A stretch of 13,894 nt of DNA, taken from NCBI GenBank assembly GCA_025455205.1, contig JALOMZ010000012.1:1-13894 (forward strand). The letters are read 5' to 3'. Source of the stretch: Chitinophagaceae bacterium. GTDB taxonomy: Bacteria; Bacteroidota; Bacteroidia; Chitinophagales; Chitinophagaceae. The notes below the pieces were generated by a model, which searched no databases, was not told the origin of the DNA, and saw only the letters and a list, made by a program, of their open reading frames with translations. Shown here piece after piece: positions 1,477 to 13,669 of this stretch; position 1 is the first letter of the stretch, and the number at the start of each line of letters is the position of its first letter. Both the position numbers and the translations under genes were made by a program.

Positions 1477-4400
1477 TCATTTTTTGAACTTGATGTTCAC
1501 ATTCACCCCATAGGCCCTGGTGGAAGGCAGGCTGGTGCCTTCTATGCCATAGTAGCGTACGTTGGAACCAAAAGTGGATTCGGGATCTATGTTGTCGGTT
1601 TTCTTCATCAGTACAGCCAAATTGCGGGCAACCAGCGAAATATTCAGTGCCTGAATAATTTTCAGCGACTTCAGTATTGAAGCCGGGAAATTATAGCCAA
1701 GCGTCAACTGGCGAAGCTTGATGAAATCGCCATCCATTACATGCAGCTTGGTCACGTTCTGGGCCAAAGCGGTGTAATACCCCTGGGGCGTGGCTGCCAC
1801 GGTATTGGGAGTACCATTTTCATACACACCTGTTGTAATGCCCGTTTCACGTCCTTCCAGGGTCATCTGGTGCAGACCGCGGATCATGGCATAGTAATTG
1901 GTGGCCGACAGAATATTGTTGCCGTAGTTGTAATCGATCAGGAAAGAGAAGGTCAGGTTCTTGTAGCGCAGATCGTTGTTGATGCCACCATAGAGTGTGG
2001 GAAGCACACTGCCCATGGGCACCAGGTCGCCACGCACCGGATGACCGGAGGAGTTCACAATAACCTGTCCTTTGGAATCATACTTGTAGTCGTAAGCCAT
2101 GATCTGCGGACCCGCCATGCCTTTTACATAGGCGGTGATAGCGTTGCCCAGGGTGGCCCTGTTCTGGCCCAGGTTTACGCGGTTACCGGCAGGATCCGTT
2201 TCCAGTACCTTGTTGCTAACATTGGTCATGTTGAAAGTGAGATCCCAGCTGAAATTGTTCTTCCGGATAATACCGCCGGTAATCTGCAATTCCAGACCCT
2301 TGTTTTCAGTAGAACCGTTCGGGAGGAAGCCGCTGGTAAAGCCTGTGGCAATGCTGTAGGAAGCCGCCATGATCTCATTCTTTGTCTTCTTCTGGAAATA
2401 GGCCAGGTCTATGCCGAGCCTGTTACCAAACATTTTCATTTCCAGACCAAACTCCAGTTCGGTGGTGGTAAAGGGCTTCAGCAAACCACTCGGAAGCGAA
2501 GTGGGGAAGCTGCCCACCGGAACACCCAGGTAAGAGTTGTTCAGGGAGTAATACACATCGGTTTGATAGGGCGTCGTCAACTCGTTGCTGGTTTGCGCAA
2601 AAGCTGCCCGCAACTTGCCGAAGTTGAGGTTCTTCATGTTCAGCAATTCGGAGAAAATGAAGCTTCCGAAAACAGAAGGTACAAAAATGGAGTTGTTACC
2701 TTCCGGCAGTGTCGAATAGGCATCATAACGGCCGGTAGTACCCAGGGTCAGGAAGTTCTTGTAACTGAAGTCTGCCGTGTAATAGCCGGAGTTCACCTGC
2801 GTCTTGGAGAACCCGTAGCTGGTATTCCTGTTCTGGGTATTGGAAATGGTGTACAGATAAGGCAGGATAAAGGGACCACCGGAAATGCTTACCGCCTCAT
2901 ATTCATTCTTGCGGAGATTGCCACCCACCGCCACATCTACGGTGAGGTCTTTTGTGATGGATTGACTGGCGCCCACCAGCACATCGGCATTCAGCTCATA
3001 GGACTGCGACTTGCCCTGGCTGCCCAGACCACCACGACGCTGCTGAGAATAAGCAGTACCCCAGGGTGTTACGTTGAGGTTTTCATCGTTCATGAGGTCG
3101 TAACCAAAACGACCCTGTGCGTACAACCATTTGGTAAAGTTGTATTTGAGGGTGGTAGCGGAGGTGAGGCGCTTACGGCCCACATTGTTCACAAACTGGT
3201 TCACTACAAACCAGGGATTGCTCACGTATTCATCATCACTGAACTGAATCTCGTAACCGGTTGCCGGATCATAGCCGGGGGAAAGAATTTGCTGATTGAT
3301 GTTAGTGGCCAGGAACATACCGTTGTTGGCGTTCAGCGGACCATCGCTCAGGTAAGGCACATTCTTGTTATTCTGGTCTATATAGGTACCAAAGAAACTG
3401 AGCTGCAGCTTGTTGGTGATATCCTGTTGTACGTTCAGGTTCACGGTATTGCGGGTTACCCCACTGTTACGGAGGATGGCTTCATTCTGAAGATTGGAGT
3501 AAGACATCCGGAATGAACCGTTGGAACCACCCTTCGACAACGCAACCGTGTTGGTGAGTGATGGACCATTGCGATAGAAGTTCTTGATATTGTCCTGTAC
3601 GGCAGAATACGGATAGGATTTGCCATCATACTGTATTACCGACGAGCCATCCAGTTTGGCACCCCAGCTTTGGCGGCCGGTTTGCTGCGCCAGCGCGGCG
3701 GTGGTTGGCTTGGCGCCGTTCAGGCCCTGGCCGTACACATACTGGAAATCGGTGAAGTCAATGGCCTGCTCCACCATGTAGTTCATATTGTAGTCTACAG
3801 AGAAGTCGTTGCGCTTACCTGATTTGGTAGTAATGAGGATAACGCCGTTGGAGGCACGGGCTCCATAGAGGGCGGAGGCCGACTGCCCTTTCAACACGGT
3901 CATATTCTCAATGTCATCGGGGTTGAGGTTACCAATACCGTCGCCGTTATCGCCACCGCCCCATTCGCCGGCACTGCCCCGCTGGGTGTTATCCATCGGG
4001 ATGCCATTGATAACGATCAGCGGCGTACCGGGACTGTTCATGCTGGGCAACCCACGCAACAACATTTTCACGGTGCCCTGCGGACCACTGCTGGTGCCTG
4101 CCACTTTCAAACCAGCCACCCGGCCGGAAAGGGAGTTACCGATGTTGTTTTCGCGGGCCTTGTTCATAAGGTCGCCATTCACGGAGGTAACCGCGTAGCC
4201 CACCTTCCTGGCCTGCTTGGTGATCCCAAGTGCTGTAACCACCACATCGGTGAGCTGCGACACTTCAGCTGCCAGCGAAACGGTGATGTTGTTTTCATCA
4301 GCGCCCACGGCCACCTCGCGCGTTACAAAGCCAATGGAAGAAACTTCCAGTGACAGGTTTCCTGTGGGCACAGCAAGGCTGAATATGCCTTCCGCATTGG

Positions 4401-4557
4401 CTACGGTGACGGCTGTGCCGCCTTTTACTTTTACGGTGGCGGAAACTACCCCCTGGTTATCGGGGCCTACAACCTTTCCGGTTAGTTGTCTTGTTTGTGC
4501 AAGCGCCACATTCAACAGGCACAAAAAGCCTGTCAGAGCAAGCAGAGTTCTTCTCAT
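1477..4557 (-). CDS. SusC/RagA-family TonB-dependent outer-membrane receptor
   Basis: This is a 1026-residue outer-membrane beta-barrel that imports glycan fragments with energy from TonB, working as a lidded complex with the SusD protein encoded next. Residues 1-20 are a signal peptide ending in NVALA. Residues about 22-108 form a carboxypeptidase-regulatory-like (CarboxypepD_reg) domain starting QLTGKVVGPDNQGV, which is typical of SusC. A TonB-box-like stretch TDVVVTALG follows at 103-111. The plug spans about 112-248 and contains the SusC hallmark ASALYGARASNGVILITTK at 227-245. The remainder is the barrel, ending in NVNIKFKK, a typical terminal strand. The length is normal for the family and the frame is intact. 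No ECF sigma/anti-sigma gene or hybrid two-component regulator is visible beside it. A long antisense open frame lies inside it and is judged spurious. Confidence 0.97.
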   Translation of the reverse strand: MRRTLLALTGFLCLLNVALAQTRQLTGKVVGPDNQGVVSATVKVKGGTAVTVANAEGIFSLAVPTGNLSLEVSSIGFVTREVAVGADENNITVSLAAEVSQLTDVVVTALGITKQARKVGYAVTSVNGDLMNKARENNIGNSLSGRVAGLKVAGTSSGPQGTVKMLLRGLPSMNSPGTPLIVINGIPMDNTQRGSAGEWGGGDNGDGIGNLNPDDIENMTVLKGQSASALYGARASNGVILITTKSGKRNDFSVDYNMNYMVEQAIDFTDFQYVYGQGLNGAKPTTAALAQQTGRQSWGAKLDGSSVIQYDGKSYPYSAVQDNIKNFYRNGPSLTNTVALSKGGSNGSFRMSYSNLQNEAILRNSGVTRNTVNLNVQQDITNKLQLSFFGTYIDQNNKNVPYLSDGPLNANNGMFLATNINQQILSPGYDPATGYEIQFSDDEYVSNPWFVVNQFVNNVGRKRLTSATTLKYNFTKWLYAQGRFGYDLMNDENLNVTPWGTAYSQQRRGGLGSQGKSQSYELNADVLVGASQSITKDLTVDVAVGGNLRKNEYEAVSISGGPFILPYLYTISNTQNRNTSYGFSKTQVNSGYYTADFSYKNFLTLGTTGRYDAYSTLPEGNNSIFVPSVFGSFIFSELLNMKNLNFGKLRAAFAQTSNELTTPYQTDVYYSLNNSYLGVPVGSFPTSLPSGLLKPFTTTELEFGLEMKMFGNRLGIDLAYFQKKTKNEIMAASYSIATGFTSGFLPNGSTENKGLELQITGGIIRKNNFSWDLTFNMTNVSNKVLETDPAGNRVNLGQNRATLGNAITAYVKGMAGPQIMAYDYKYDSKGQVIVNSSGHPVRGDLVPMGSVLPTLYGGINNDLRYKNLTFSFLIDYNYGNNILSATNYYAMIRGLHQMTLEGRETGITTGVYENGTPNTVAATPQGYYTALAQNVTKLHVMDGDFIKLRQLTLGYNFPASILKSLKIIQALNISLVARNLAVLMKKTDNIDPESTFGSNVRYYGIEGTSLPSTRAYGVNVNIKFKK

Positions 4558-4952
4558 AAGTGAAGCGTTTTTCTAAAAAGGGTTAATCAACCATGAAACA
4601 TGGCAGAACCAAACTATAATAATTTCCTAAAAGATTCCTAATTATTTATTAATTTATTAATTAGAATGCGGCCTTTTGTGGATCGTTTGTTATAAAAGCA
4701 CTGCTTTATTTCAAATTTCAATCGTTTCCGGTTAGCAAAAAGATTAAACAAACACCTGGCACCTCGTAGCAACTGGATCTTCCTTACCCAAACCTGAGTC
4801 CCTGTTTGGCCCCAGTAAACATAGGGGCAACATCAACCATATAGTATAAAGAATAAAGACCCAAAGTGGAGGCGCATGGCCGGCCCGGCTGCCATTTTTT
4901 GGCTGCTTGTCAAATAATTACATCCTGATGTGTTATGGGCTTAATGTATCGT
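4558..4952. other. 395-nt non-coding gap upstream of the SusC gene
   Basis: I see no gene here. It separates the GH92 stop from the SusC start and must hold the SusC promoter if that gene is not read through from GH92. Nearest the SusC gene is a perfect small hairpin, CCATG-AAA-CATGG, at 4591-4603. Next is a minus-strand TATAGTTTG (4618-4610), which resembles the Bacteroidota -7 box TAnnTTTG but has a 3-nt spacer and no TTG at the right distance. Then comes a 25-nt run of only A and T (4639-4663). Farther out are two adjoining inverted repeats: CCAAAC/GTTTGG (4788-4809) and GCCCC/GGGGC (4809-4828). A hairpin-like GC block at 4876-4895 is followed by T6 on the plus strand only. No clear minus-strand terminator for GH92 was found. 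Confidence 0.6.
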
Positions 4953-7235
4953 TCAGCGGGGCTGCAGATTGCTCATGCTATAGGGTTGTTTTAGCTCGGA
5001 GCCCTTCACCTCAGCAGGGGGATTTGCCCCCATCGTGAATTCCCATTTGCCGCCTTCCTGCAAATCGGCATGCCTTACAAACCTGTTGGGGTACCCTTTA
5101 CCGTTATGCATAAGCTGCTGTACGAAAACATTGTCCGGTCCATTTCCCCTGGCGTCAATTTGCGTCTTTTTTCCGCCGGGCATGGTCAATATTACCCGAT
5201 CGAACAGGGGACTGCCCAGCACATATTCATCTGTACCAGGGCAAACCGGATAGAAGCCCATGGCTGAAAAAACATACCAGGCGCTGGTTTGGCCATTGTC
5301 CTCATCACCGCAGTAACCATCAGGCCCCGGGTGATAGAGGCGGTCCATTACCTGGCGCACCCGCTGTTGTGTTTTCCAGGGCTGGCTGGTGTAATTGTAT
5401 AAATAGGGCATGTGCTGAATGGGTTGGTTGCCGTGGGCATATTGTCCCATATTCATGATTTGCATTTCACGGATCTCATGGATCACGAAGCCGTAATAGG
5501 ACTCATCATAATCAGGCGGCAGGTTGAATACAGAGTCCAGCATACTAATGAAGCCTTTGTCGCCACCCATTTTTTGTTTGAGGCCTTCCACGTCGTGAAA
5601 CACACTCCAGGAATAATGCCAGCTGTTGCCTTCGGTGAAGGCATCCCCCCATTTGAAGGGGTTGAAGGGATAAGCAAAACGCCCATCGGCTTTGCGGCCG
5701 CGCATGAGGCGGGTGGTATCATCAAACAGCAAGCGATAATTCTGGCTGCGCTGTTTGAACACATCGGTTTCGGCTTTGGGGCGCCCAAGCGATTCGCCCA
5801 GTTTCCACAGGCAGAAATCGGCATAGGCGTATTCCAGTGAGCGGGCAGCTGATTCATTGATACCCACATCACTGGGCACATAGCCCAGCCGGTTATAATG
5901 CTGCACACCACGCCTTCCTACGCTGGATACCGGTCCTTCGTTATTGGCGTTTTTCACCAGGGCTTCCCATAGCAGATTGATATCATAACCCCGAATGCCT
6001 TTGAGCCAGGCATCGGCAATAAGGGAAGCGGAATTGCTTCCGATCATACAATCACGGTGGCCTGGACTGGCCCATTCAGGCAGCCAGCCACTCTCTTTGT
6101 AGGTGTTAACCAGGCCCTGCATGATTTGCGCATTCAGATCGGGATACATCAGCGTGAAGAAGGGGAACACCGCGCGGAACGTATCCCAGAAACCATTATC
6201 GGTGAACATATACCCTGGCAGCACCTGTCCGTTATACGGGCTGTAATGCACCACCTGGTTCTTTTCATCCAGCTCATAAAATTTCCGGGGGAAAAGGAGC
6301 ACCCGGTACAGGCAGCTGTAGAAAGTGCGGCGCTGTGCCTCTGTACCGCCCTGCACTTCTATGCGCTTTAATTCGTTCTGCCAGGCCTCCCAGCCTTTCC
6401 GGCGGGTGGTGGCAAAATCATCCTGGCCAATTTCCCGGCGCAGGTTGAGCCAAGCCTGCTGCTCGCTGATGAAGCTGGAAGCTACCCGGATGTTCAGCTT
6501 CTCCCCTTTGCGGGTCTTGAATCCAAGCACTGCCATGCTGTGGTTGCCGCTGGCGGCCTTGTCTTTGGACAGCACATCATTATTGACGGTATACATCAGC
6601 TGGGCGGGCCGGCTGAGTTGCATCACAAAGTAATTGCGGAAGTTTTCCGGTACGCCCCCACTGTTGCGGCTGCTGTAGCCGGTAACGGTAAGGCCGTCTG
6701 CGCTGATGGTAACGGCAGATCCTTTGTCATAGGCATCTATCACCACCCAGGCACTGTCGGCCTGTGGCCAGGTAAACTGCAGTTGCGCAGCTCGATCAGT
6801 GGGCGTCAATTCCGCCACCACATTGTGATCGGCCAGGTATACCTGGTAATAATGCGGAGACGCTGTTTCTGCCTTGTGGCTGAACCAGCTGGCCCTCTCC
6901 TTTTCGCGCCAGCGAAGCTTACCCGTGAGAGGCATGATGCTGAATGCACCATAATCGTTGATCCATGGCGAAGGCTGGTGGGTCTGCTTCAACCCTACTA
7001 TTTTCTCTGCCCCATACTGATACTGCCAGCCATCACCCATGGCACCGGTTTGGGGTGTCCAGGCATGCATGCCCCAGGGCATAGCTATGGCGGGATAGGT
7101 ATTGCCATTGCTGAGGGAGTGTTTACTATCGGAGCCCATTAGCGGATTCACGAGGGCTACCAGGTCGGTTGTTTGGGCAGGGAGGCTGTAAACCATCAAT
7201 ACAGATGGAATGATAGCAAGCAGTCGAAATTTCAT
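4953..7235 (-). CDS. GH92 family exo-alpha-mannosidase, secreted
   Basis: GH92 enzymes are calcium-dependent inverting exo-alpha-mannosidases that trim mannose from N-glycans and mannans. From the ATG at 7235 the product has 760 residues, with a type I signal peptide (MKFRLLAIIPSVLMVYSLPAQ). Family motifs appear in order: GNTYPAIAMPWGMHAWTP near the N-terminus, GLKQTHQPSPW, GFWDTFR (348-354), GHRDCMIG, TEGNSWHYSW with the likely general acid Glu535, and GDEDNGQTSAWY with Asp644 and Asp646, the likely general-base pair. It ends normally with VCPGTDEYVLGSPLF and a short beta domain. These positions nearly match those I recall for Bacteroides BT3990. A His-Glu pair at 586-587 may indicate alpha-1,2 preference, which is tentative. 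The frame can be extended 10 codons to a TTG at 7265, or to an ATG at 7253, but both put extra residues before the signal peptide. No lipobox is present. Confidence 0.95.
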   Translation of the reverse strand: MKFRLLAIIPSVLMVYSLPAQTTDLVALVNPLMGSDSKHSLSNGNTYPAIAMPWGMHAWTPQTGAMGDGWQYQYGAEKIVGLKQTHQPSPWINDYGAFSIMPLTGKLRWREKERASWFSHKAETASPHYYQVYLADHNVVAELTPTDRAAQLQFTWPQADSAWVVIDAYDKGSAVTISADGLTVTGYSSRNSGGVPENFRNYFVMQLSRPAQLMYTVNNDVLSKDKAASGNHSMAVLGFKTRKGEKLNIRVASSFISEQQAWLNLRREIGQDDFATTRRKGWEAWQNELKRIEVQGGTEAQRRTFYSCLYRVLLFPRKFYELDEKNQVVHYSPYNGQVLPGYMFTDNGFWDTFRAVFPFFTLMYPDLNAQIMQGLVNTYKESGWLPEWASPGHRDCMIGSNSASLIADAWLKGIRGYDINLLWEALVKNANNEGPVSSVGRRGVQHYNRLGYVPSDVGINESAARSLEYAYADFCLWKLGESLGRPKAETDVFKQRSQNYRLLFDDTTRLMRGRKADGRFAYPFNPFKWGDAFTEGNSWHYSWSVFHDVEGLKQKMGGDKGFISMLDSVFNLPPDYDESYYGFVIHEIREMQIMNMGQYAHGNQPIQHMPYLYNYTSQPWKTQQRVRQVMDRLYHPGPDGYCGDEDNGQTSAWYVFSAMGFYPVCPGTDEYVLGSPLFDRVILTMPGGKKTQIDARGNGPDNVFVQQLMHNGKGYPNRFVRHADLQEGGKWEFTMGANPPAEVKGSELKQPYSMSNLQPR

Positions 7236-7308
7236 GTAACAAATATGCTGCATTATTGAACGCAAACATTTACCGTGGCAGCCTTGAGGCGGTAGCCCGG
7301 TTCCTCCA

Positions 7309-7340
7309 TTTTGTCAAAAATCCAACCTTCAGTAAATTTG
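7309..7340 (+). promoter_or_regulatory. Bacteroidota-type promoter for tRNA-Arg
   Basis: The -33 element TTG (within TTTTG, 7309-7313) and the -7 element TAAATTTG (7333-7340) match the Bacteroidota primary sigma consensus TTG / TAnnTTTG, with a 19-nt spacer. Transcription would begin a few bases after 7340, leaving a leader of roughly ten bases before the tRNA at 7359. This is the only consensus-quality promoter I found in the window. It also supports the phylum assignment. Confidence 0.8.
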
Positions 7341-7358
7341 TGATGCAGTTTATGCAGC

Positions 7359-7432
7359 GGCTCCGTAGCTCAACTGAATAGAGCATCTGACTACGGATCA
7401 GAAGGTTTCAGGTTTGAATCCTGACGGAGTCA
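7359..7432 (+). tRNA. tRNA-Arg (anticodon ACG)
   Basis: A full 74-nt cloverleaf can be folded. The acceptor is GGCUCCG (7359-7365) with CGGAGUC (7425-7431), containing one G-U pair, and the discriminator is A7432. The D-stem is GCUC/GAGC with loop AACUGAAUA. The anticodon stem is UCUGA/UCAGA with loop CUACGGA, so the anticodon ACG is at 7393-7395. The variable loop is AGGUU. The T-stem is UCAGG/CCUGA with loop UUUGAAU. CCA is not encoded. With A34 modified to inosine it would read CGU, CGC and CGA. Two normally invariant tertiary positions are changed together: G19 is A (7377) and C56 is U (7415), which keeps a Watson-Crick pair. A15 also fits U48. It is the only plus-strand gene here, has a consensus promoter upstream, and is followed by a terminator 5 nt after its 3' end. 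Confidence 0.95.
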
Positions 7433-7437
7433 CATGA

Positions 7438-7470
7438 AAAAGAGGCTGTCTCAGAAGGGCAGCCTCTTTT
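7438..7470 (+). terminator. Intrinsic terminator of tRNA-Arg (hairpin 1)
   Basis: An 11-bp perfect stem, AAAAGAGGCTG (7438-7448) with CAGCCTCTTTT (7460-7470), encloses an 11-nt loop and starts 5 nt after the tRNA 3' end. On the plus strand the T-run is part of the stem. Read on the minus strand the hairpin is followed by T-rich sequence, so it could act in both directions. Confidence 0.8.
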
Positions 7471-7480
7471 CGGTTTCAGG

Positions 7481-7521
7481 CAGCGGCGATTAATGCCGCG
7501 GTGCCGGCCACAGCGCCGGCA
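7481..7521. repeat. 41-nt GC-rich double hairpin splitting a tRNA T-arm repeat
   Basis: The segment lies exactly between TCAGG (5' T-stem, 7476-7480) and the T-loop/3' T-stem copy starting at 7522. It contains two adjacent inverted repeats: GCGGC/GCCGC (7483-7487 and 7495-7499, loop GATTAAT) and TGCCGGC/GCCGGCA (7502-7508 and 7515-7521, loop CACAGC). The flanking TCAGG and CCTGA could still pair and close both hairpins. It resembles a REP/MITE-like palindromic insert, but no second full copy occurs in the window, so the class is inference. Confidence 0.6.
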
Positions 7522-7546
7522 TTTGAATCCTGACGGAGTCACATAA

Positions 7547-7577
7547 AAAAGGGTCATCCTAATTGGATGACTCTTTT
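7547..7577 (+). terminator. Terminator-type hairpin 2 in the tRNA-end repeat
   Basis: The stem is 13 bp including one G-U pair: AAAAGGGTCATCC (7547-7559) with GGATGACTCTTTT (7565-7577), and the loop is TAATT. Its core sequence differs from hairpin 1, but the flanks are those of the repeat unit. It could be a back-up terminator for tRNA read-through or end a small RNA formed from repeat 2. Confidence 0.7.
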
Positions 7578-7618
7578 CGGTTTCAGGCAGCGGCGATCAT
7601 CATTCCATGCAACATAAA

Positions 7619-7653
7619 AAGAGCAATCCCGACAAAATGCCAGGATTGCTCTT
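7619..7653 (-). terminator. Terminator of the T9SS-protein gene (hairpin 3)
   Basis: An 11-bp perfect stem, AAGAGCAATCC (7619-7629) with GGATTGCTCTT (7643-7653), lies 26 nt past the stop of the T9SS-protein gene. On the minus strand it is followed by a T5 run (GCTCTTTTTATG). The plus-strand side lacks a T-run, so its main role should be to end the minus-strand gene. Its plus-strand 5' flank, ACATAAAAAGAG, matches the repeat units after the tRNA. Confidence 0.82.
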
Positions 7654-7679
7654 GCAAAATCATTCCGATTCCCGGAAGA

Positions 7680-8972
7680 CTATTGTTTCATGAATTTCGA
7701 CCATGACTGGGCCTGGCCATCGGCCAGCAACACATGATATATGCCGGCTGGAAGGTCGCCAACGGGCACTGAGGTTTGCAGGCCCTGCTGCTGAACGGGC
7801 CAGGTCTTTACCATACGGCCATCGGCAGTATACAGCCGCAATTGCGCAGCTTCCGATGCAGGAGCGTATCGCACCATCAATTGACTGCCTGCGGGATTCG
7901 GGAAGAGCGAAAGGCTGGATTTGGAGATGCGGTGCACCAAAACAACAGGGCTGTAGTTAAAGCTCCCATCCTCCTCCACCATCTTCAACCGGTACCAGGT
8001 AGTGGCACCCAGACGAAGGCCGTCGTTGAAAGTGTAGGTATTTACTGTGGGCAGATTGCGGGCAGCCACCCTTCCAGCTGCTACAAATTGCTGGCCATCG
8101 GAACTGCGCTCTATTTCAAAATGACTCATATGGCTTTCCTGCAGGGTTTGCCAGTTGGCGGTAACTCTGCCGGAAGCGTTGGCAGACACCTGAAAATTCC
8201 GGAGTTGCAGTGGAAGTATATAGGTAGACAGGGCCGCCCAGGAGGTGGCCACCGCCATGTTGTCTACACTGCCGGCAGGCGCGCTCGAAGAGGTACCCTG
8301 CCGAATGGAAACCGCCGCAATGCTGGTGGCATCCGAATTCAGGTCGTGCCGTACCAGGGAACTGGCGGGTTCAACCACCGGCAAACCCTCTGCGGCTTTA
8401 AAAACATACAGGTCTGCGGCATCATCGCTGGTGGATGCCAGCGTGTTGAAGGCATATTTAAGCACCAGGCAATAGGTAGTGTTCAGGTCAAACAATTCGT
8501 TAGCATAATTAGGACTCCCACCAGCATTCTTCATAAGCCCAAACTGGATATTGGATCCACTTGATCGCACGAATACGCGCCCATAGAACTGAGTGGCTCC
8601 TGCCGACTGCGTGAAATGGGCAAAATAGTCGCCCGTGGCATTGGCGGAAGAAATGGACACCAGCATGACCAGATACAGCGCACCAGAGTTTACGGCACCG
8701 GGCAATGGCGCTACAATATCCTGGCCGGTATTGGTGAACACCAGCTTTCCGCCAAGGTCAGACATGCCCGGGAAAGAGAGATTTCCCGAGGCATCATACT
8801 GAACCGGATTGGTGGCCGTGGACCCTGTTTGTGTCCATGGCGAGCCCGGCAATCCAGCCAGGCTGCCGGAAACGGCACCATAGTTGAAGGCTTCATAAAA
8901 GACCGGTTGGGCCGAGGTAGCCCATGCTACCGCCACACCCAGCAGCGGGAGCACACTGAATTTTCGAATCAT
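7680..8972 (-). CDS. Secreted protein with T9SS type A sorting domain, function unknown
   Basis: The 430-residue product has a signal peptide (residues 1-21, ending ATSAQ) and a C-terminal type IX secretion signal at about 352-430. The signal contains LSLFPNP, LRLYTADGRMVKT, DLPAGIYHVLL and a terminal KFMKQ. It should pass the outer membrane and be anchored to the surface or released. Residues about 24-250 start VFYEAFNYGAVSGSLAG, a lectin/LamG-like beta-sandwich style common in such proteins. I recognise no catalytic motif. Residues about 253-347 look like a fibronectin-III-like linker (LPLQLRNFQVSANASGRVTANW). It sits downstream of the GH3 gene on the same strand and has its own strong terminator. 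A glycan-binding or adhesive role is inference only. The A/T-rich leader holds a perfect 7-bp hairpin and no Shine-Dalgarno. Confidence 0.88.
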   Translation of the reverse strand: MIRKFSVLPLLGVAVAWATSAQPVFYEAFNYGAVSGSLAGLPGSPWTQTGSTATNPVQYDASGNLSFPGMSDLGGKLVFTNTGQDIVAPLPGAVNSGALYLVMLVSISSANATGDYFAHFTQSAGATQFYGRVFVRSSGSNIQFGLMKNAGGSPNYANELFDLNTTYCLVLKYAFNTLASTSDDAADLYVFKAAEGLPVVEPASSLVRHDLNSDATSIAAVSIRQGTSSSAPAGSVDNMAVATSWAALSTYILPLQLRNFQVSANASGRVTANWQTLQESHMSHFEIERSSDGQQFVAAGRVAARNLPTVNTYTFNDGLRLGATTWYRLKMVEEDGSFNYSPVVLVHRISKSSLSLFPNPAGSQLMVRYAPASEAAQLRLYTADGRMVKTWPVQQQGLQTSVPVGDLPAGIYHVLLADGQAQSWSKFMKQ

Positions 8973-8990
8973 AAAAAGGAAAGGTTGGTT

Positions 8991-9015
8991 ATGGCCTTAA
9001 AATAAAACAGGCCAT
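8991..9015 (-). promoter_or_regulatory. Hairpin in the leader of the T9SS-protein gene
   Basis: A perfect 7-bp inverted repeat, ATGGCCT/AGGCCAT, with an 11-nt A/T-rich loop lies 18 nt before the start codon. The nucleotides between it and the ATG are pyrimidine-rich on the coding strand. It may protect or gate the 5' end of the mRNA, or it may be the remains of a terminator for the upstream GH3 gene. No sigma consensus was found in the 208-nt gap around it. Confidence 0.35.
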
Positions 9016-9180
9016 CGAAATATGCAATACCCCTGCCACCCCGGTGTAAACCGCGTTCGATTTGTCGGCCCAAAGGCCAGCTGCATTAGGTTATACGGTA
9101 ATGGGTATAGCAAAGGCAACCAACTCTTCCGCCTGTCTATGGCAGAGACTGAAGCATGGGGCATGGCTGTGGCGCCCACA

Positions 9181-11889
9181 TTATCTGGCTGCTGCGTTGA
9201 TTGTTGTTTTCAACCTGATGTCTTTGCTGGATGCCCCCACCATAATCCGGAATTCTCCGGGCTCCACCACCCGCTTACCTTCCGCATTGAACATGCTGAG
9301 CATATCGGGGGTAATACGAAACACCACCTGCCGGCTTTCGCCTTTCTTCAAGGATATACGCTGGAACCCTTTCAATTCCATCACAGGCCGTGCCAGGGTA
9401 GCTATTTCATCGCGTATATACAGTTGTATCACTTCATCGCCTTCAAGTGGTCCGGTATTGGTAACCGTGAACCTCAGGGTGGCACTTTCACCCGGCCGGA
9501 TAACCGTATTCTCCAGTTGCAGATTGCTGTAGGCAAAGCGGGTATAACTCAGCCCAAAGCCAAAGGGGAACAAAGGCTCCCCGCTCAGGTTATGGTAATC
9601 ATCCCCCCGACCGGTGGGCAGGTGCCAGTAGCTGAGTGGAAGCTGGGCCTCGTGTACAGGGAAGGTAATGGGCAGGCGACCAGCGGGGTTCACTTTCCCA
9701 AGCAGCACATCCGCCACTGCATGGCCACCTTCCTCGCCAGGATACCATACCATCATAACAGCATTTACTTTATTCAGCCAGCGGCTCATGGTGATGGCGC
9801 TGCCGCCCACCAGCAGCACCGTCACGGGCTTTCCGGTGGCCGCCACTGCCTCAATCAGTTCCTCCTGGTGATAATCAAGGTTCAGCAGGGCCCGGTCCTG
9901 GAATTCCCCTTCGTGGATGCCCGCCACCAGCACCACGGCATCGCTGGTCCGGGCCAGTTGCACGGCCTCCTGCTGCATTTGCTGCCAGGGATCACGCACC
10001 CCTTTGTCCCAGATCAGGCGGACGCGCGCATTGCCCACGGGCTCGCGGAATTCAACGCGTATGCGGTACGACTCCCCCTTCTTAAATGAATAAGGCTTCA
10101 TGATGGTGCTGTAGCTTTTCTTTTCCCAGGCATTTACCAGCAGGCTGTCGTTTATAAACAAACGAAAGCCATCGTTCCCATCCAGGCCGATATTGAATAC
10201 ACCGCTGGAATCGGGCGTAAGCAGGCCAGTCCACCGCACGGCATAGAAATCGCGCGGAAGCCTTTCATCGGGGGAATAAAGCGTCCAGTGAAAATCTACC
10301 CGGCCATCGGCCCGCGTGAATACCGGTTCGCCGGCAAGATCCATGTTGTTATGGTAGGCACCCAACAGTCCGTTGTTCTTTTTACCGTTCAACTCATGCG
10401 ACAGGTACCTGGCTGGTATGGTTTCCCATGCACGGTTCTTACGGGAGTAACCGGCGGCAAAAGATATACTTGTTCCGGGCAGGGCCTCCTGCAATCCCTG
10501 CAGGATATTGACGGTTCCATTGCCCGGTCCGCTGTAGCCTCCCAGCCGGCCCAGCTGTGCGTCCTCTCCTATCACGGCCAGCTTTTTAATGCCCGCCGGC
10601 TGCAAAGGCAACATGCCCTGGTTGCGCAGCAATACCATGCTTTTTGCCGCCGCCATCCGGGCCATAGACTTCTGCTGCTGCACGTTGATCAGCCTTTCAA
10701 TATCCTCCACGGCCACATAGGGTTTTTCAAAGAGCCCCAATTCAAACTTGGCCCGCAGCACGCGGCCCACGGCATCGTTGAGCCGGGCACTGTCAATGCC
10801 GCCGTTGAGGAAGGGTTCTATGAATAGTTTATGGTGGTTATAGTCTGTTTGAAAGATCACATCCAGGCCGCCGTTGATGGACTGTTTTCCGCTTTCGGCG
10901 TAATCACGGCCGGTCATATGCAGCACATTGGCGCCGCCTACGGCACTGGCATCAGAAATCACGAAGCCTTTGAAGCCCTGCTCCTTGCGGAGCCAGTTAA
11001 GCAACAAAGAGGCGCTGGCACTGGAAGGCACCCCATTCACGCTGTTGTATGCGGTCATCAGGCTGCGCGAACCCGCTTGGTGTATGGCCGCTTCAAAAGG
11101 CAGCAGGTGCGTTTGCCGCAGGTACCAATCGCTCCAGTGGATGGGATAGCTGTCGCGACCGCCTTCGCCCACATTGGCAATGAAATGCTTGGGGGTGGTA
11201 ACAATGCCTGACAGTTCAAAAGGACGCATGAAGGCCACGCCCATGGCAGACGTAAGAAAAGGATCTTCTCCATAGGTCTCTTCTGTTCTGCCCCAGCGCA
11301 CATCGCTGGCCAGGTTGATCACCGGCGACAGGATCTGCCGTATGCCGCGACTGCGGGTTTCCAGCGCAATGGCCCGTGCCACATTGGATACGGTAGCAGT
11401 ATCCCAGGTAGCTGCCAGCGCTATGGCCTGCGGAAAGGCCGTGGCCCCCTGACGCACCAGGCCATGCAGGGCTTCGTCGAAAGGAATGATGGGAATGCCA
11501 AGCCGGGTTTGGGTAACAAAATACTGTTGCAGGCGGTTGATCTTTAATGCCAGTTCCCGGGCATTGTCCGTTGCATTATACTGCAGCATTTGCCCGGCCG
11601 CATGGCCGCTGGCCCCTGCCGCACTCACCTGAAACCCGAACAACCCGTTGCGGTAGAGCGGCTCCTCTCCCGGCCGGATCTCCCCGGGTATCATAAATAA
11701 CTGCCAGAACTTTTCTTCCGGCGTCATACGCTGCAGCAGGTCCTGCACCCGCTGATCTATGGGCAGTGAGGAATTTTTGTAAGGGAAATTTTCCTGGGAT
11801 AATGCCAGGGCGGAACTGGCTAACAGGGCAGCAACAAGGATACAGCCACGAACGGACGTTGCATTAAGCAAGGCAGTAAAAGCAGACAT
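9181..11889 (-). CDS. GH3 family beta-glycosidase with PA14 insert, secreted
   Basis: This is a 902-residue retaining exo-beta-glycosidase of the beta-glucosidase/xylosidase class. Residues 1-31 form a signal peptide with a hydrophobic core CILVAALLASSALAL. The (beta/alpha)8 domain spans about 40-385. It has GRTEETYGEDP (200-210), KHF (234-236), and the nucleophile Asp313 in GFVISDASAVGG. The second GH3 domain is interrupted at about 505-630 by a PA14 module (GLLGAYHNNMDLAG to RVRLIWDKG), which in other GH3 enzymes shapes the sugar subsites. It resumes with HEGEFQDR (659-666), which carries the probable acid/base Glu660 or Glu662. A fibronectin-III-like domain (about 785-895) closes the protein. 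The length suits the PA14-bearing type. It follows the symporter gene after a terminator, so it needs its own promoter, which I could not identify. Exact substrate unknown. Confidence 0.95.
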   Translation of the reverse strand: MSAFTALLNATSVRGCILVAALLASSALALSQENFPYKNSSLPIDQRVQDLLQRMTPEEKFWQLFMIPGEIRPGEEPLYRNGLFGFQVSAAGASGHAAGQMLQYNATDNARELALKINRLQQYFVTQTRLGIPIIPFDEALHGLVRQGATAFPQAIALAATWDTATVSNVARAIALETRSRGIRQILSPVINLASDVRWGRTEETYGEDPFLTSAMGVAFMRPFELSGIVTTPKHFIANVGEGGRDSYPIHWSDWYLRQTHLLPFEAAIHQAGSRSLMTAYNSVNGVPSSASASLLLNWLRKEQGFKGFVISDASAVGGANVLHMTGRDYAESGKQSINGGLDVIFQTDYNHHKLFIEPFLNGGIDSARLNDAVGRVLRAKFELGLFEKPYVAVEDIERLINVQQQKSMARMAAAKSMVLLRNQGMLPLQPAGIKKLAVIGEDAQLGRLGGYSGPGNGTVNILQGLQEALPGTSISFAAGYSRKNRAWETIPARYLSHELNGKKNNGLLGAYHNNMDLAGEPVFTRADGRVDFHWTLYSPDERLPRDFYAVRWTGLLTPDSSGVFNIGLDGNDGFRLFINDSLLVNAWEKKSYSTIMKPYSFKKGESYRIRVEFREPVGNARVRLIWDKGVRDPWQQMQQEAVQLARTSDAVVLVAGIHEGEFQDRALLNLDYHQEELIEAVAATGKPVTVLLVGGSAITMSRWLNKVNAVMMVWYPGEEGGHAVADVLLGKVNPAGRLPITFPVHEAQLPLSYWHLPTGRGDDYHNLSGEPLFPFGFGLSYTRFAYSNLQLENTVIRPGESATLRFTVTNTGPLEGDEVIQLYIRDEIATLARPVMELKGFQRISLKKGESRQVVFRITPDMLSMFNAEGKRVVEPGEFRIMVGASSKDIRLKTTINAAAR

Positions 11890-11936
11890 ACGCTAAAATT
11901 AGGCATTTGGGGCCAAGGCCCTTTAGGATCCATTAC

Positions 11937-11970
11937 AAAAGAGCCGCGGCTTTGCATGCTCAGCCGCGGC
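11937..11970 (-). terminator. Intrinsic terminator of the symporter gene
   Basis: A perfect 8-bp GC stem, GCCGCGGC at 11943-11950 and 11963-11970, gains a ninth pair from T11951/A11962. On the minus strand it is followed by TCTTTT. It begins 25 nt after the symporter stop. It separates the symporter transcript from the GH3 gene, whose ATG is 47 nt farther on. Confidence 0.88.
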
Positions 11971-11995
11971 CCTGTTTATCGGTTCGGAACAACTG

Positions 11996-13669
11996 TTACC
12001 AGAACATCATATACAAGGCGGCCAGGATACCGCAAATGATCAGTGAACCGGCCACAAAGCCCGGGTTTAGTTTGAACATTTTGGTATCCACTTCCAGGCC
12101 ATGGGGTTCTACACCCTTCTTCTGATCGCGCAGGCTGATGATTACCATGGCTACTATGCAGATCACAAACACAAAGCCCATGCGGTCTATGAAGGGGATC
12201 TCAAAGATGCCCTGGGCATTGCGCACCGCAAAACCCGAAGCTTCCAGGAAGCCCAGGTCCATGAATCCCGGCAGAAATTTGAAGATTACGGACAACACAA
12301 AACCACCGATGGTGGCAAACAGCGCTGCATTGGAAGTGGTCTTCTTCCAGAAGAAACCCAGGATGAACATGGCAAAGATGCCGGGCGACACAAAGCCGGT
12401 ATATTCCTGGATATACTGGAAGCCGCCTTTCTTATCCATGCCCAGGAAGGGGGAAATCACCACGGCCAGGATCATGGATACGATGATGGTGATCTTGCCC
12501 ACATTTACCAGTTGTTTTTCGGTAGCATCCTTGTTGATCACTTTCTTGTAAACGTCGAGGGAGAAGATGGTGGCAATGCTGTTGGCTTTGCCTGCCAGTG
12601 AAGCCACCACCGCAGCGGTGAGGGCAGCAAAGGAAAGGCCCTTCAATCCAACAGGCAGCAGGTTCAGCAACACGGGATAAGCGCGGTCTGGATTGAGTTC
12701 ACCATCCTGCATCATCTCTGCCTGGAAATTGCCCTCCTGGTGCAGCACAAAAGCAGCAATGCCGGGCAATACCACAATCACCGGCATGAGGAGCTTCAGG
12801 AAGGCCGCAAACATGATACCGTTGCGCGCCGTTTTGAGGTCGGCGCCCAGAGCCCGCGGGGTGATGTACTGGTTGCAGCCCCAGTAGTTGAGGTTTACGA
12901 TCCACATGCCGCCAATCAGCACCGACAGGCCGGGCAAATCGAGGTAGTTGGGATTATCTGTTTTCAGGATCATGTGGAAATGATCATCGGCTTTTTCGGT
13001 CATCCATTTGAAGCCTTTTACAATGCCATTGTCACCAAAATGGGCAGCCACCAGGTCGAGGGCGAGGTAGGTGGTAACCAGGCCGCCCAGGATGAGCACC
13101 AACACCTGGATAACACTGGTATACCCTATCACCTTCATACCGCCCAGGGTAATCACCACCCCGAAAATGGCCAGCAACGCAATGCAGGTGAAGAGGTTGA
13201 GGCCCGACACGCTGCTTACGGCCAGGGCGCCGAGGTACAGGATAGAGGTAAGGTTCACTACGACATACAGCAGCAACCAGAAGATGGCCATGATCCAGGC
13301 CACGGTGCTGTTGTAGCGCGTGTGCAGGAACTGGGGCATGGTGTATATCTTGTTCTTCAGGTATACCGGAATGAAGAAGATGGCCACAATAAGGAGCGAT
13401 GCGGCCGCCATCCATTCATAGGTGGCAATGGCCAGGCCCATTTTTAAACCTGAACCACTCATGCCAATGAACTGTTCGGCAGAAATATTGGAGGCGATCA
13501 GCGATGCCCCAATGGCCCACCAGGTGAGTGAACCTTCTGCCAAAAAGTAATCGTGCGAAGCGGAAACATCTGTCCGCTTTTTCTTGATGTAGATCCAGTA
13601 ACCGTAGCCGGCTACAATTACAAAATAGATCAGGAATACGAGGTAGTCGTAGAGTTGAAGCGCCTGCAT
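11996..13669 (-). CDS. SSS-family sodium/sugar symporter (SGLT-like)
   Basis: This 557-residue inner-membrane protein has about 13-14 hydrophobic segments and uses the sodium gradient to import a sugar. It has the SGLT-type motifs LIASNISAEQFIGMSGSG (57-74), YEWMAA (84-89), NLNYWGCNQYITPRALGA (259-276) and FQYIQEYTGFVSPG (417-430). Gln66, Glu85, Asn259, Lys292 and Gln421 appear to match the galactose-binding Gln, Glu, Asn, Lys and Gln of Vibrio vSGLT, an alignment made from memory. A monosaccharide substrate such as glucose, galactose or mannose is therefore more likely than a carboxylate or amino acid. The start at 13669 gives a normal N-terminus (MQALQLYDYLVFLIYF). The gene is bounded by terminators on both sides and is probably monocistronic. 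It could supply the last uptake step for sugars freed by GH92 and GH3. Confidence 0.95.
   Translation of the reverse strand: MQALQLYDYLVFLIYFVIVAGYGYWIYIKKKRTDVSASHDYFLAEGSLTWWAIGASLIASNISAEQFIGMSGSGLKMGLAIATYEWMAAASLLIVAIFFIPVYLKNKIYTMPQFLHTRYNSTVAWIMAIFWLLLYVVVNLTSILYLGALAVSSVSGLNLFTCIALLAIFGVVITLGGMKVIGYTSVIQVLVLILGGLVTTYLALDLVAAHFGDNGIVKGFKWMTEKADDHFHMILKTDNPNYLDLPGLSVLIGGMWIVNLNYWGCNQYITPRALGADLKTARNGIMFAAFLKLLMPVIVVLPGIAAFVLHQEGNFQAEMMQDGELNPDRAYPVLLNLLPVGLKGLSFAALTAAVVASLAGKANSIATIFSLDVYKKVINKDATEKQLVNVGKITIIVSMILAVVISPFLGMDKKGGFQYIQEYTGFVSPGIFAMFILGFFWKKTTSNAALFATIGGFVLSVIFKFLPGFMDLGFLEASGFAVRNAQGIFEIPFIDRMGFVFVICIVAMVIISLRDQKKGVEPHGLEVDTKMFKLNPGFVAGSLIICGILAALYMMFW

Follow-up and report, generated by a model that had tools for sequence, protein, structure and literature searches.

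The tandem repeats directly 3' of a tRNA-Arg(ACG) gene in a Chitinophagaceae bacterium are probably the ORF-less remains of a mobile element that targets tRNA genes. Such an element would be small and mobile, would reside at the 3' ends of tRNA genes and would be carried elsewhere by the gene of a single-domain GIY-YIG nuclease. The window, i.e., the whole stretch of DNA analysed, comprises 13,894 nt of contig JALOMZ010000012.1 in assembly GCA_025455205.1 (genome G000), a fragmented metagenome-assembled genome of 397 contigs that is 61.7% complete. The tRNA-Arg gene is the only tRNA gene in the window, and it is followed by the features collected in Table 1.

Table 1. Features of the tRNA-Arg(ACG) locus, in window coordinates
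Feature	Position	Strand	Evidence
tRNA-Arg(ACG), intact	7359-7433	+	ARAGORN; RF00005 62.3 bits
Hairpin 1, A/T-rich flanks, terminator-like, directly 3' of the tRNA	7438-7470	+	Fold -21 kcal/mol, z -4.74; unflagged by consensus scan
Copy of the T-stem 5' strand (GGTTTCAGG; tRNA positions 49-53 at 7476-7480)	7472-7480	+	Sequence; standard tRNA numbering
HP1 of unit 2 (CAGCGGC-GATTAAT-GCCGCGG), starting right after T-stem position 53	7481-7501	+	R1 match 7475-7534, 41.2 bits; fold
HP2 of unit 2 (TGCCGGC-CACAGC-GCCGGCA), flush against T-loop position 54	7502-7521	+	R1 match 7475-7534; R2 58.5 bits (R2 training set includes this unit)
Copy of tRNA-Arg from T-loop to 3' end, plus AT	7522-7544	+	23 nt identical to 7413-7435
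Hairpin 2, terminator-like, stem sequence unrelated to hairpin 1	7547-7577	+	z -7.51; consensus scan passed on - strand only
Unit 3, decayed: T-stem copy and start of HP1 left (to 7597)	7579-7613	+	7571-7597 identical to 7464-7490; z +1.12; no R1/R2 match
Hairpin 3, terminator-like, between the array and a convergent gene (7680-8972, - strand)	7619-7653	+	z -5.25; scan passed on - strand

The first-pass annotation had described three units carrying their own terminator hairpins, and the repeats themselves are real: they begin at 7404, 7472 and 7579 with GGTTTCAGG, and the direct repeats of 23 nt (exact, extending to 30 nt at 97%) and 27 nt (100%) are as it claimed. Exact matches of these lengths within 250 nt would be expected by chance with an estimated probability below 1e-8. 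The second unit is well preserved, whereas the third is partial, as it keeps only its left 19-20 nt and has lost the T-loop and the tRNA 3' end. Copy 2 (7472-7544) repeats tRNA-Arg from the T-arm to the 3' end, with a split at tRNA positions 53/54, and it ends as the local tRNA-Arg does. What had been noted simply as an insert in this unit is present, and consists of two abutting hairpins (HP1 and HP2) that sit precisely at the junction of T-stem 5' strand and T-loop. The three A/T-flanked hairpins are strong folds whose stems are unrelated in sequence; on the + strand, however, a consensus terminator scan passed none of them (two passed on the - strand), and the name terminator is therefore putative here. 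Folded alone, unit 2 is moderate (z -2.08) and unit 3 shows nothing unusual.

Only 38 nt, without a GIY-YIG ORF, separate the tRNA from unit 2, and unit 2 contains no ORF remnant. The array was therefore assigned to an ORF-less form, like loci L163, L175, L176 and L189. The five large ORFs of the window encode a TonB-dependent receptor, GH92, a protein with a T9SS tail, GH3 and an SSF (sodium:solute symporter) transporter, and there is no integrase or nuclease among them. The TonB-dependent receptor, GH92, GH3 and sodium:solute symporter genes occupy 1477-13669 on the - strand and are likely a glycan-use locus unrelated to the array. Searches with PF01541 and with the two nuclease types described below (A and B) found no nuclease gene on the window's contig; the one PF01541 match of G000 lies on another contig. 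Neither the A-type protein nor the B-type profile had a match in G000, a result that is weak for the whole genome given that the assembly is 61.7% complete.

A covariance model, R1, was built from an alignment (A3) of four Gly-type units, three from G000 and one from its sister genome G008; the Arg unit was left out because MAFFT misplaced HP1 when it was aligned with the Gly units. Searched against the window with filters off, R1 recovered the Arg unit at 7475-7534 (41.2 bits, E 1.5e-8, E-values of R1 and of a second model, R2, being rough), and the runner-up scored 9.6 bits. The window unit thus has the full B-type architecture of T-stem 5' copy, HP1, HP2 and T-loop, with the insert at 53/54. 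At E <= 0.05, R1 matches occur in 17 of 314 family genomes and 12 of 101 genera, a lower bound because the strict filters missed the window unit itself. The occurrence of such repeats in relatives, which the first-pass annotation had made a touchstone of its proposal, is borne out by these counts; yet within the genus an R2 search located a B-type unit in just two of ten genomes, G000 and G008. The tRNA-Arg stretch had matches in 54 of 59 relatives, mostly to the tRNA itself, and in eight of the ten genus genomes, several of these being weak matches to other tRNAs. Among 29 relative loci inspected there was no further B-type Arg array.

The R1 matches were aligned (A4; 65 rows, 44 distinct). 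In this alignment 97.1% of cells pair and 25 of 28 pairs show two-sided changes, counts that favour the model, as A4 was fitted to it and many rows come from the same arrays and are related. None of 500 shuffles reached the observed value on any of five measures, and slid controls were 30-49% paired. The two parts of the structure differ in their pairs: HP1 and HP2 together contain 832 Watson-Crick, 11 G-U and 20 mismatched cells, the T-stem 156, 35 and 11, respectively (94.6% paired). The scarcity of G-U pairs in HP1 and HP2 suggests that selection may act on the hairpins as DNA rather than as RNA.

The unit mostly shares its 3' end with the tRNA beside it. From R1 and R2 hits, 47 units at 35 loci were picked for comparison, and the two units of L195 were dropped because no tRNA lies upstream of them. 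The 3' end of the unit agreed with that of the local tRNA at 18 or more of 20 bases in 34 of the remaining 45 (mean 17.0/20, vs 11.1/20 for other isotypes). The 11 units below 18/20 comprise five Val units with a one-base slice offset and the unmatched units of L164 (2), L211 (2), L207 and L204. The T-stem copy agreed with the tRNA at five or more of six bases in 34 of 45 units. The 12 bases that precede it were mostly unlike the tRNA (exceptions: L203, 12/12, and L189, 9/12), so that the copy is for the most part the T-stem strand alone. Units stand directly 3' of tRNA-Arg(CCG), Ser(GGA), Gly(TCC) and Gly(CCC) in the ORF-less form (L163, L175, L176, L189), and arrays have spacings of 90, 109, 116 and 173 nt. 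Double-hairpin units also occur with no recognised tRNA nearby, in L166 and L181 (G098), L186 (G237) and L172 (G186); in G098 they lie at several places, and such units are perhaps dispersed copies. Upstream of the unit in L183, a stretch of about 190 nt (1310-1495) that was missed by ARAGORN and Rfam contains a T-arm and 3' end, and is perhaps an odd or interrupted tRNA-like gene.

G000 contains a second array. A survey of the 13 tRNA genes found in this genome, in which a 3'-end copy was defined as at least 17 of 24 bases within at most 1200 nt, identified two with copies of their own 3' ends downstream: Arg and Gly(CCC). Behind tRNA-Gly(CCC) are four extra copies of its 3' end at 90-nt spacing (L089 1150-1572, - strand, G000:C378). 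The main spacer between them consists of TCGCGGG (the T-stem 5' strand) and the hairpins CCGAGAC..GTCTCGG and TGCAGAC..GTCTGC, and the first spacer has one fused hairpin instead. The insert again falls at 53/54, and the HP1/HP2 junction, CGG/TGC, is shared with the Arg unit. A Gly unit is predicted to fold into a T-stem that encloses both hairpins and leaves the T-loop open (z -4.66).

In G008 a homologous hairpin pair lies within the T-arm of the tRNA-Gly(CCC) gene itself, and there is no intact copy (L157 1417-1552, - strand). ARAGORN finds no tRNA in this split gene; the Rfam tRNA model aligns across the insert with 46.5 bits. G001 and G005 have a plain tRNA-Gly(CCC) gene without the insert. 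The downstream sequence is collinear in G001, G005 and G008, but upstream G008 resembles G000 and differs from G001 and G005, and the empty site is therefore demonstrated on one side only.

The unit is found behind nuclease genes in other genomes. R1 units adjoin ORFs of the B subtype of GIY-YIG nucleases at tRNA-Asp, Leu, Pro, Val, Lys and Gly genes, with one to three ORF-unit repeats, and the ORF precedes the unit in L164, L165, L168-L171, L173, L174, L179 and L188. The order in this fuller form is tRNA, terminator-like hairpin, GIY-YIG ORF, T-stem 5' copy, HP1, HP2, the local tRNA from T-loop to 3' end, and a terminator-like hairpin. Apart from the missing ORF, the window follows this order twice: unit 2 is complete and unit 3 decayed.

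A profile scan of genome contigs with an alignment of B-type nucleases (A5) returned 334 relatives, the best 80 of which were kept. Most of these 80 are from Bacteroidota (Chitinophagaceae, Sphingobacteriales, Flavobacteriales, Cyclobacterium, Saprospiraceae and others); Moranbacteria, Marinamargulisbacteria, Neomarinimicrobiota and Chlorobiota each appear in the title of one record, and a record titled Spirochaetaceae has the same contig number and size as a Bacteroidales record. Among the 73 untruncated loci of the best 80, 56 are preceded at no more than 400 nt by a same-strand tRNA; these tRNAs belong to 12 amino-acid classes, and such proximity is estimated at below 1% for a random gene. 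Within 600 nt after the ORF start, 35 of these 56 contain a copy of that tRNA's 3' end of at least 18/22, and by this criterion 21 contain none. The other 17 of the 73 have no upstream tRNA, and seven of them have one just downstream.

A unit lies at the ORF stop (-25 to +80 nt) in 27 of the best 80 loci by R1 and in 32 by R2, leaving 53 without a counted R1 unit at the ORF end. The input to this count was one hit each from 30 (R1) and 38 (R2) loci; L204, L210, L212 and L215 (minus strand only) and L264 (weak, before the ORF) were counted as R1 misses, and L240 and L264 (minus strand only) as R2 misses. L191, L192, L211, L221, L222 and L225 are apparently the same loci as L174, L165, L164, L173, L179 and L171, respectively, as their R1 scores are identical, and the scan loci and the family-genome loci are therefore not independent. 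The B-type nuclease belongs to PF01541, and its nearest solved relatives by sequence are PDB 1zg2 and 1ywl (E 5.8e-11 and 1.4e-8). These are UPF0213 GIY-YIG proteins, which share PF01541 with it but were solved as hypothetical proteins. A tree of 53 B-type proteins contains 35 changes of tRNA isotype over its 53 rows; it is poorly resolved and cannot date them.

Nucleases of another type are associated with relics of another form. At tRNA-Arg loci of the genus, a small GIY-YIG ORF lies directly 3' of the tRNA in G004 (L012) and tRNA-like relics are present in G009 (L016). The G004 protein (P0001, PF01541, A type) has matches in 172 of 294 family genomes. In a set of 32 A-type loci (L048, L049 and L058-L087), 30 have a same-strand tRNA within 400 nt upstream and 20 a 3'-end copy of at least 18/22; the weaker genus loci L050-L057, 4/8 with an upstream tRNA, were left out of this set. 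In many A-type relics a hairpin such as TCCCGATTTATAATCGGGA replaces the anticodon arm, and in L058, L060, L064, L068 and L078 the T-arm is also altered or replaced by a hairpin. A hairpin of at least 6 bp was present in 26 of 30 A-type loci, a figure that is not a count of anticodon-arm hairpins, as several of the longest are terminators. The Arg arrays of G009 and G004 are of another kind than that of the window, being made of A-type relics. R2 (E <= 0.05, default filters) had no hit in 27 G005 tRNA loci and 29 A-type loci, L061 being left out of this control. Across the loci examined, hairpin type corresponds to nuclease subtype.

A further nuclease type occurs at tRNA-Leu(CAG), where a hairpin at 56/57 interrupts the T-loop of the relic. 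G005 has one copy of this element (L300) and G008 three identical 347-nt copies (L301, - strand; tRNA at 1376-1460 after turning), and the two genomes agree at 335 of 347 positions. Such units have therefore multiplied in tandem or been lost between close relatives. Three side observations were made at other loci. In L167 (218-628), three repeats at 173-nt spacing comprise a relic with both an anticodon-arm hairpin and a T-loop double hairpin, i.e., a mixture of A and B forms. The tRNA-Pro(TGG) locus L285 of G005 (1388-2150) has two tandem GIY-YIG ORFs, and its relic hairpins replace the anticodon arm and the T-arm. Whole tRNA-Arg(ACG) genes stand in tandem in L025 of G003 (1501-1711) and L016 of G009 (1501-1798, where the pair spans a run of N).

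The observations to be explained are therefore the anatomy of the array, the homology of units across genera and isotypes, their covariation, their position behind an ORF, sites with and without the unit, and differences in copy number. Cutting and movement of the element are inferred from these sequence comparisons, and may proceed as follows. The nuclease would cut tRNA genes in the T-loop, and recombinational repair would then copy the element in, duplicating the 3' end of the tRNA; the host tRNA would be left intact because the element carries a copy of that end. The hairpin pair at 53/54 would disrupt the target site of the displaced copy, and the nuclease might also bind it in the form of hairpin DNA. 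Cutting, together with recombination between 3'-end copies, could make an array grow or shrink and could remove the ORF. Plain homing is not an explanation for the changes of isotype, since each of these requires that the new tRNA's 3' end be duplicated at some step. The window array is probably now inert, or else non-autonomous and movable in trans. The suggestion in the first-pass annotation that the repeats are scars of repeated integration at the tRNA comes near to this account; the agent, however, would be a GIY-YIG element instead of an integrase.

The same annotation had offered small RNAs, tRNA-end decoys or alternative 3' ends, and a functional RNA has also been proposed for rtT; read-through from the tRNA would then yield small RNAs or decoys with a split T-arm. 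The orientation of the unit, which is always that of the tRNA, the retention of a pairing T-stem, the fold of the Gly unit as predicted and the strong covariation are what speak for this idea, which is nevertheless unlikely. In HP1 and HP2, G-U pairs are outnumbered by mismatches, which is unexpected for a selected RNA and leaves these proposals with little support. In the window a strong hairpin stands between tRNA and unit, though without a + strand terminator call; the window unit folds moderately and unit 3 has decayed; and the unit turned up in just two of the ten genus genomes, with nothing in Rfam above threshold in the window except tRNA. Duplication of the tRNA tail by replication slippage or unequal crossing-over, with the hairpins as chance palindromes that arose or were inserted, would account for the 23-nt and 27-nt blocks as local duplications and for the array spacings as tandem growth. 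As an origin this is largely refuted by homologous hairpin pairs at 53/54 across isotypes, directly behind GIY-YIG ORFs and in other genera, and as a whole it is decidedly improbable; as a means by which copy number has grown, slippage or crossing-over is likely.

Blocks of identity that run from T-loop to 3' end are typical of the tRNA attachment sites of integrating islands, and the 23-nt block of the window has this extent. The units could accordingly be scars of islands or phages whose tyrosine recombinases use the tRNA 3' end as attachment site. Distant tRNA-Arg 3'-end copies do exist in G016 (C21:184097-184146, about 1.5 kb downstream) and G025 (C121:12628-12678, on another contig), and they resemble the leavings of ordinary tRNA-integrated islands. 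For the window array such an origin is nonetheless very improbable: no integrase is among its five large ORFs, inserts at the loci inspected are tens of nucleotides or one GIY-YIG ORF, and a covarying hairpin pair has no role in it. A viral origin of the nuclease was rejected, as a scan of 2.9 million viral contigs returned just three distant relatives of the B-type nuclease (31-39% identity). An assembly artefact might be suspected in so fragmented and incomplete a metagenome-assembled genome, but unit 2 departs from the tRNA in a structured and conserved manner and a homologous unit is present in G008, a single-contig genome, which makes this reading extremely unlikely.

The GIY-YIG element remains the preferred explanation of the array, and a wider proposal, more tentative than that explanation, can be built on it. 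The loci described here may represent an undescribed, widespread class of tRNA-parasitic elements in Bacteroidota, in which single-domain GIY-YIG nucleases invade tRNA genes of many isotypes via the T-loop, spare the host tRNA, whose 3' end they carry, and label the displaced copy with a subtype-specific DNA hairpin (double at 53/54, at 56/57, or substituting for the anticodon arm). The window array and the tRNA-Gly array would be non-autonomous derivatives mobilised in trans, and rtT of E. coli may be a distant case. If so, the class would explain in general how tandem repeats of tRNA 3' ends like those of rtT arise, would account for broken or repeated tRNA sequences such as the split tRNA-Gly(CCC) of G008, and would extend the link between GIY-YIG nucleases and tRNA genes known from phage SegB to bacterial chromosomes. 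The proposal pairs nuclease subtype with a particular hairpin and a particular tRNA site, and so could be tested with one protein and a few DNA substrates.

The first-pass annotation had named rtT as a counterpart of the array, and the likeness holds for layout only. Behind tyrV of E. coli K-12 the tRNA-Tyr 3' end occurs three times at 178-nt spacing (L279 810-1345, - strand), each unit consisting of AAGGTTCGA (a T-stem/T-loop fragment), hairpin-rich sequence and AATCCTTCCCCCACCACCA. As in the window, tRNA 3' ends are repeated in tandem behind a tRNA gene, the T-arm is split within the loop and part of the unit is hairpin-rich. In rtT, however, the split is at about 58/59, later in the T-loop, and the units are 178 nt long. 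Membership of a common unit family was considered and rejected: the window has no match to the Rfam RtT family at E <= 1, and R2, the double-hairpin model, misses the rtT units, its best score being 11 bits at intact tRNA T-arms. Of 5426 E. coli genomes, 4695 contain matches to a 91-nt piece of the rtT unit, 1-14 of them per genome, and the fold of the piece that was examined is unexceptional (z -0.93). No GIY-YIG gene is annotated near tyrV in the K-12 stretch examined.

REP/REPIN sequences are short hairpin doublets that are spread in trans by a RAYT transposase encoded elsewhere. The window unit is likewise a hairpin doublet, but is tied to tRNA T-arms and to a GIY-YIG nuclease, not to a Y1 transposase.

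A search of the open-licence literature found no recognisable description of GIY-YIG elements of this kind at bacterial tRNA genes; in the portion of PMC1564403 that was consulted, tRNA appears three times, for one fusion protein and in two references. Phage T4/T6 SegB, as far as the cited accounts describe it, is a free-standing GIY-YIG homing endonuclease located among tRNA genes (PMC13096335; PMC2988022). The cuts fall inside tRNA genes, and tandem amplification depends on the nuclease activity of SegB (PMC13096335). The motif RAWTSGAAC, present at 23 of 83 sites, enhances cutting and is not required for it (PMC13096335). On the other strand this motif reads GTTCSAWTY, which we take to be the T-loop; the GTTTGAATC of the window differs from the motif by one base, and a split at 53/54 would alter only its first base. 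As a mark of targeted tRNAs the motif was rejected, since it is not enriched among them (21 of 56 targeted, vs 16 of 31 in G005). SegB is borne by a phage, the window has no nuclease gene, and a duplicated tRNA 3' end with a hairpin pair is absent from the descriptions of SegB cited here. In placing a GIY-YIG nuclease next to tRNA genes, in its T-loop-like motif and in tandem amplification driven by recombination, SegB is, on those descriptions, the nearest precedent for the tRNA-tail elements.
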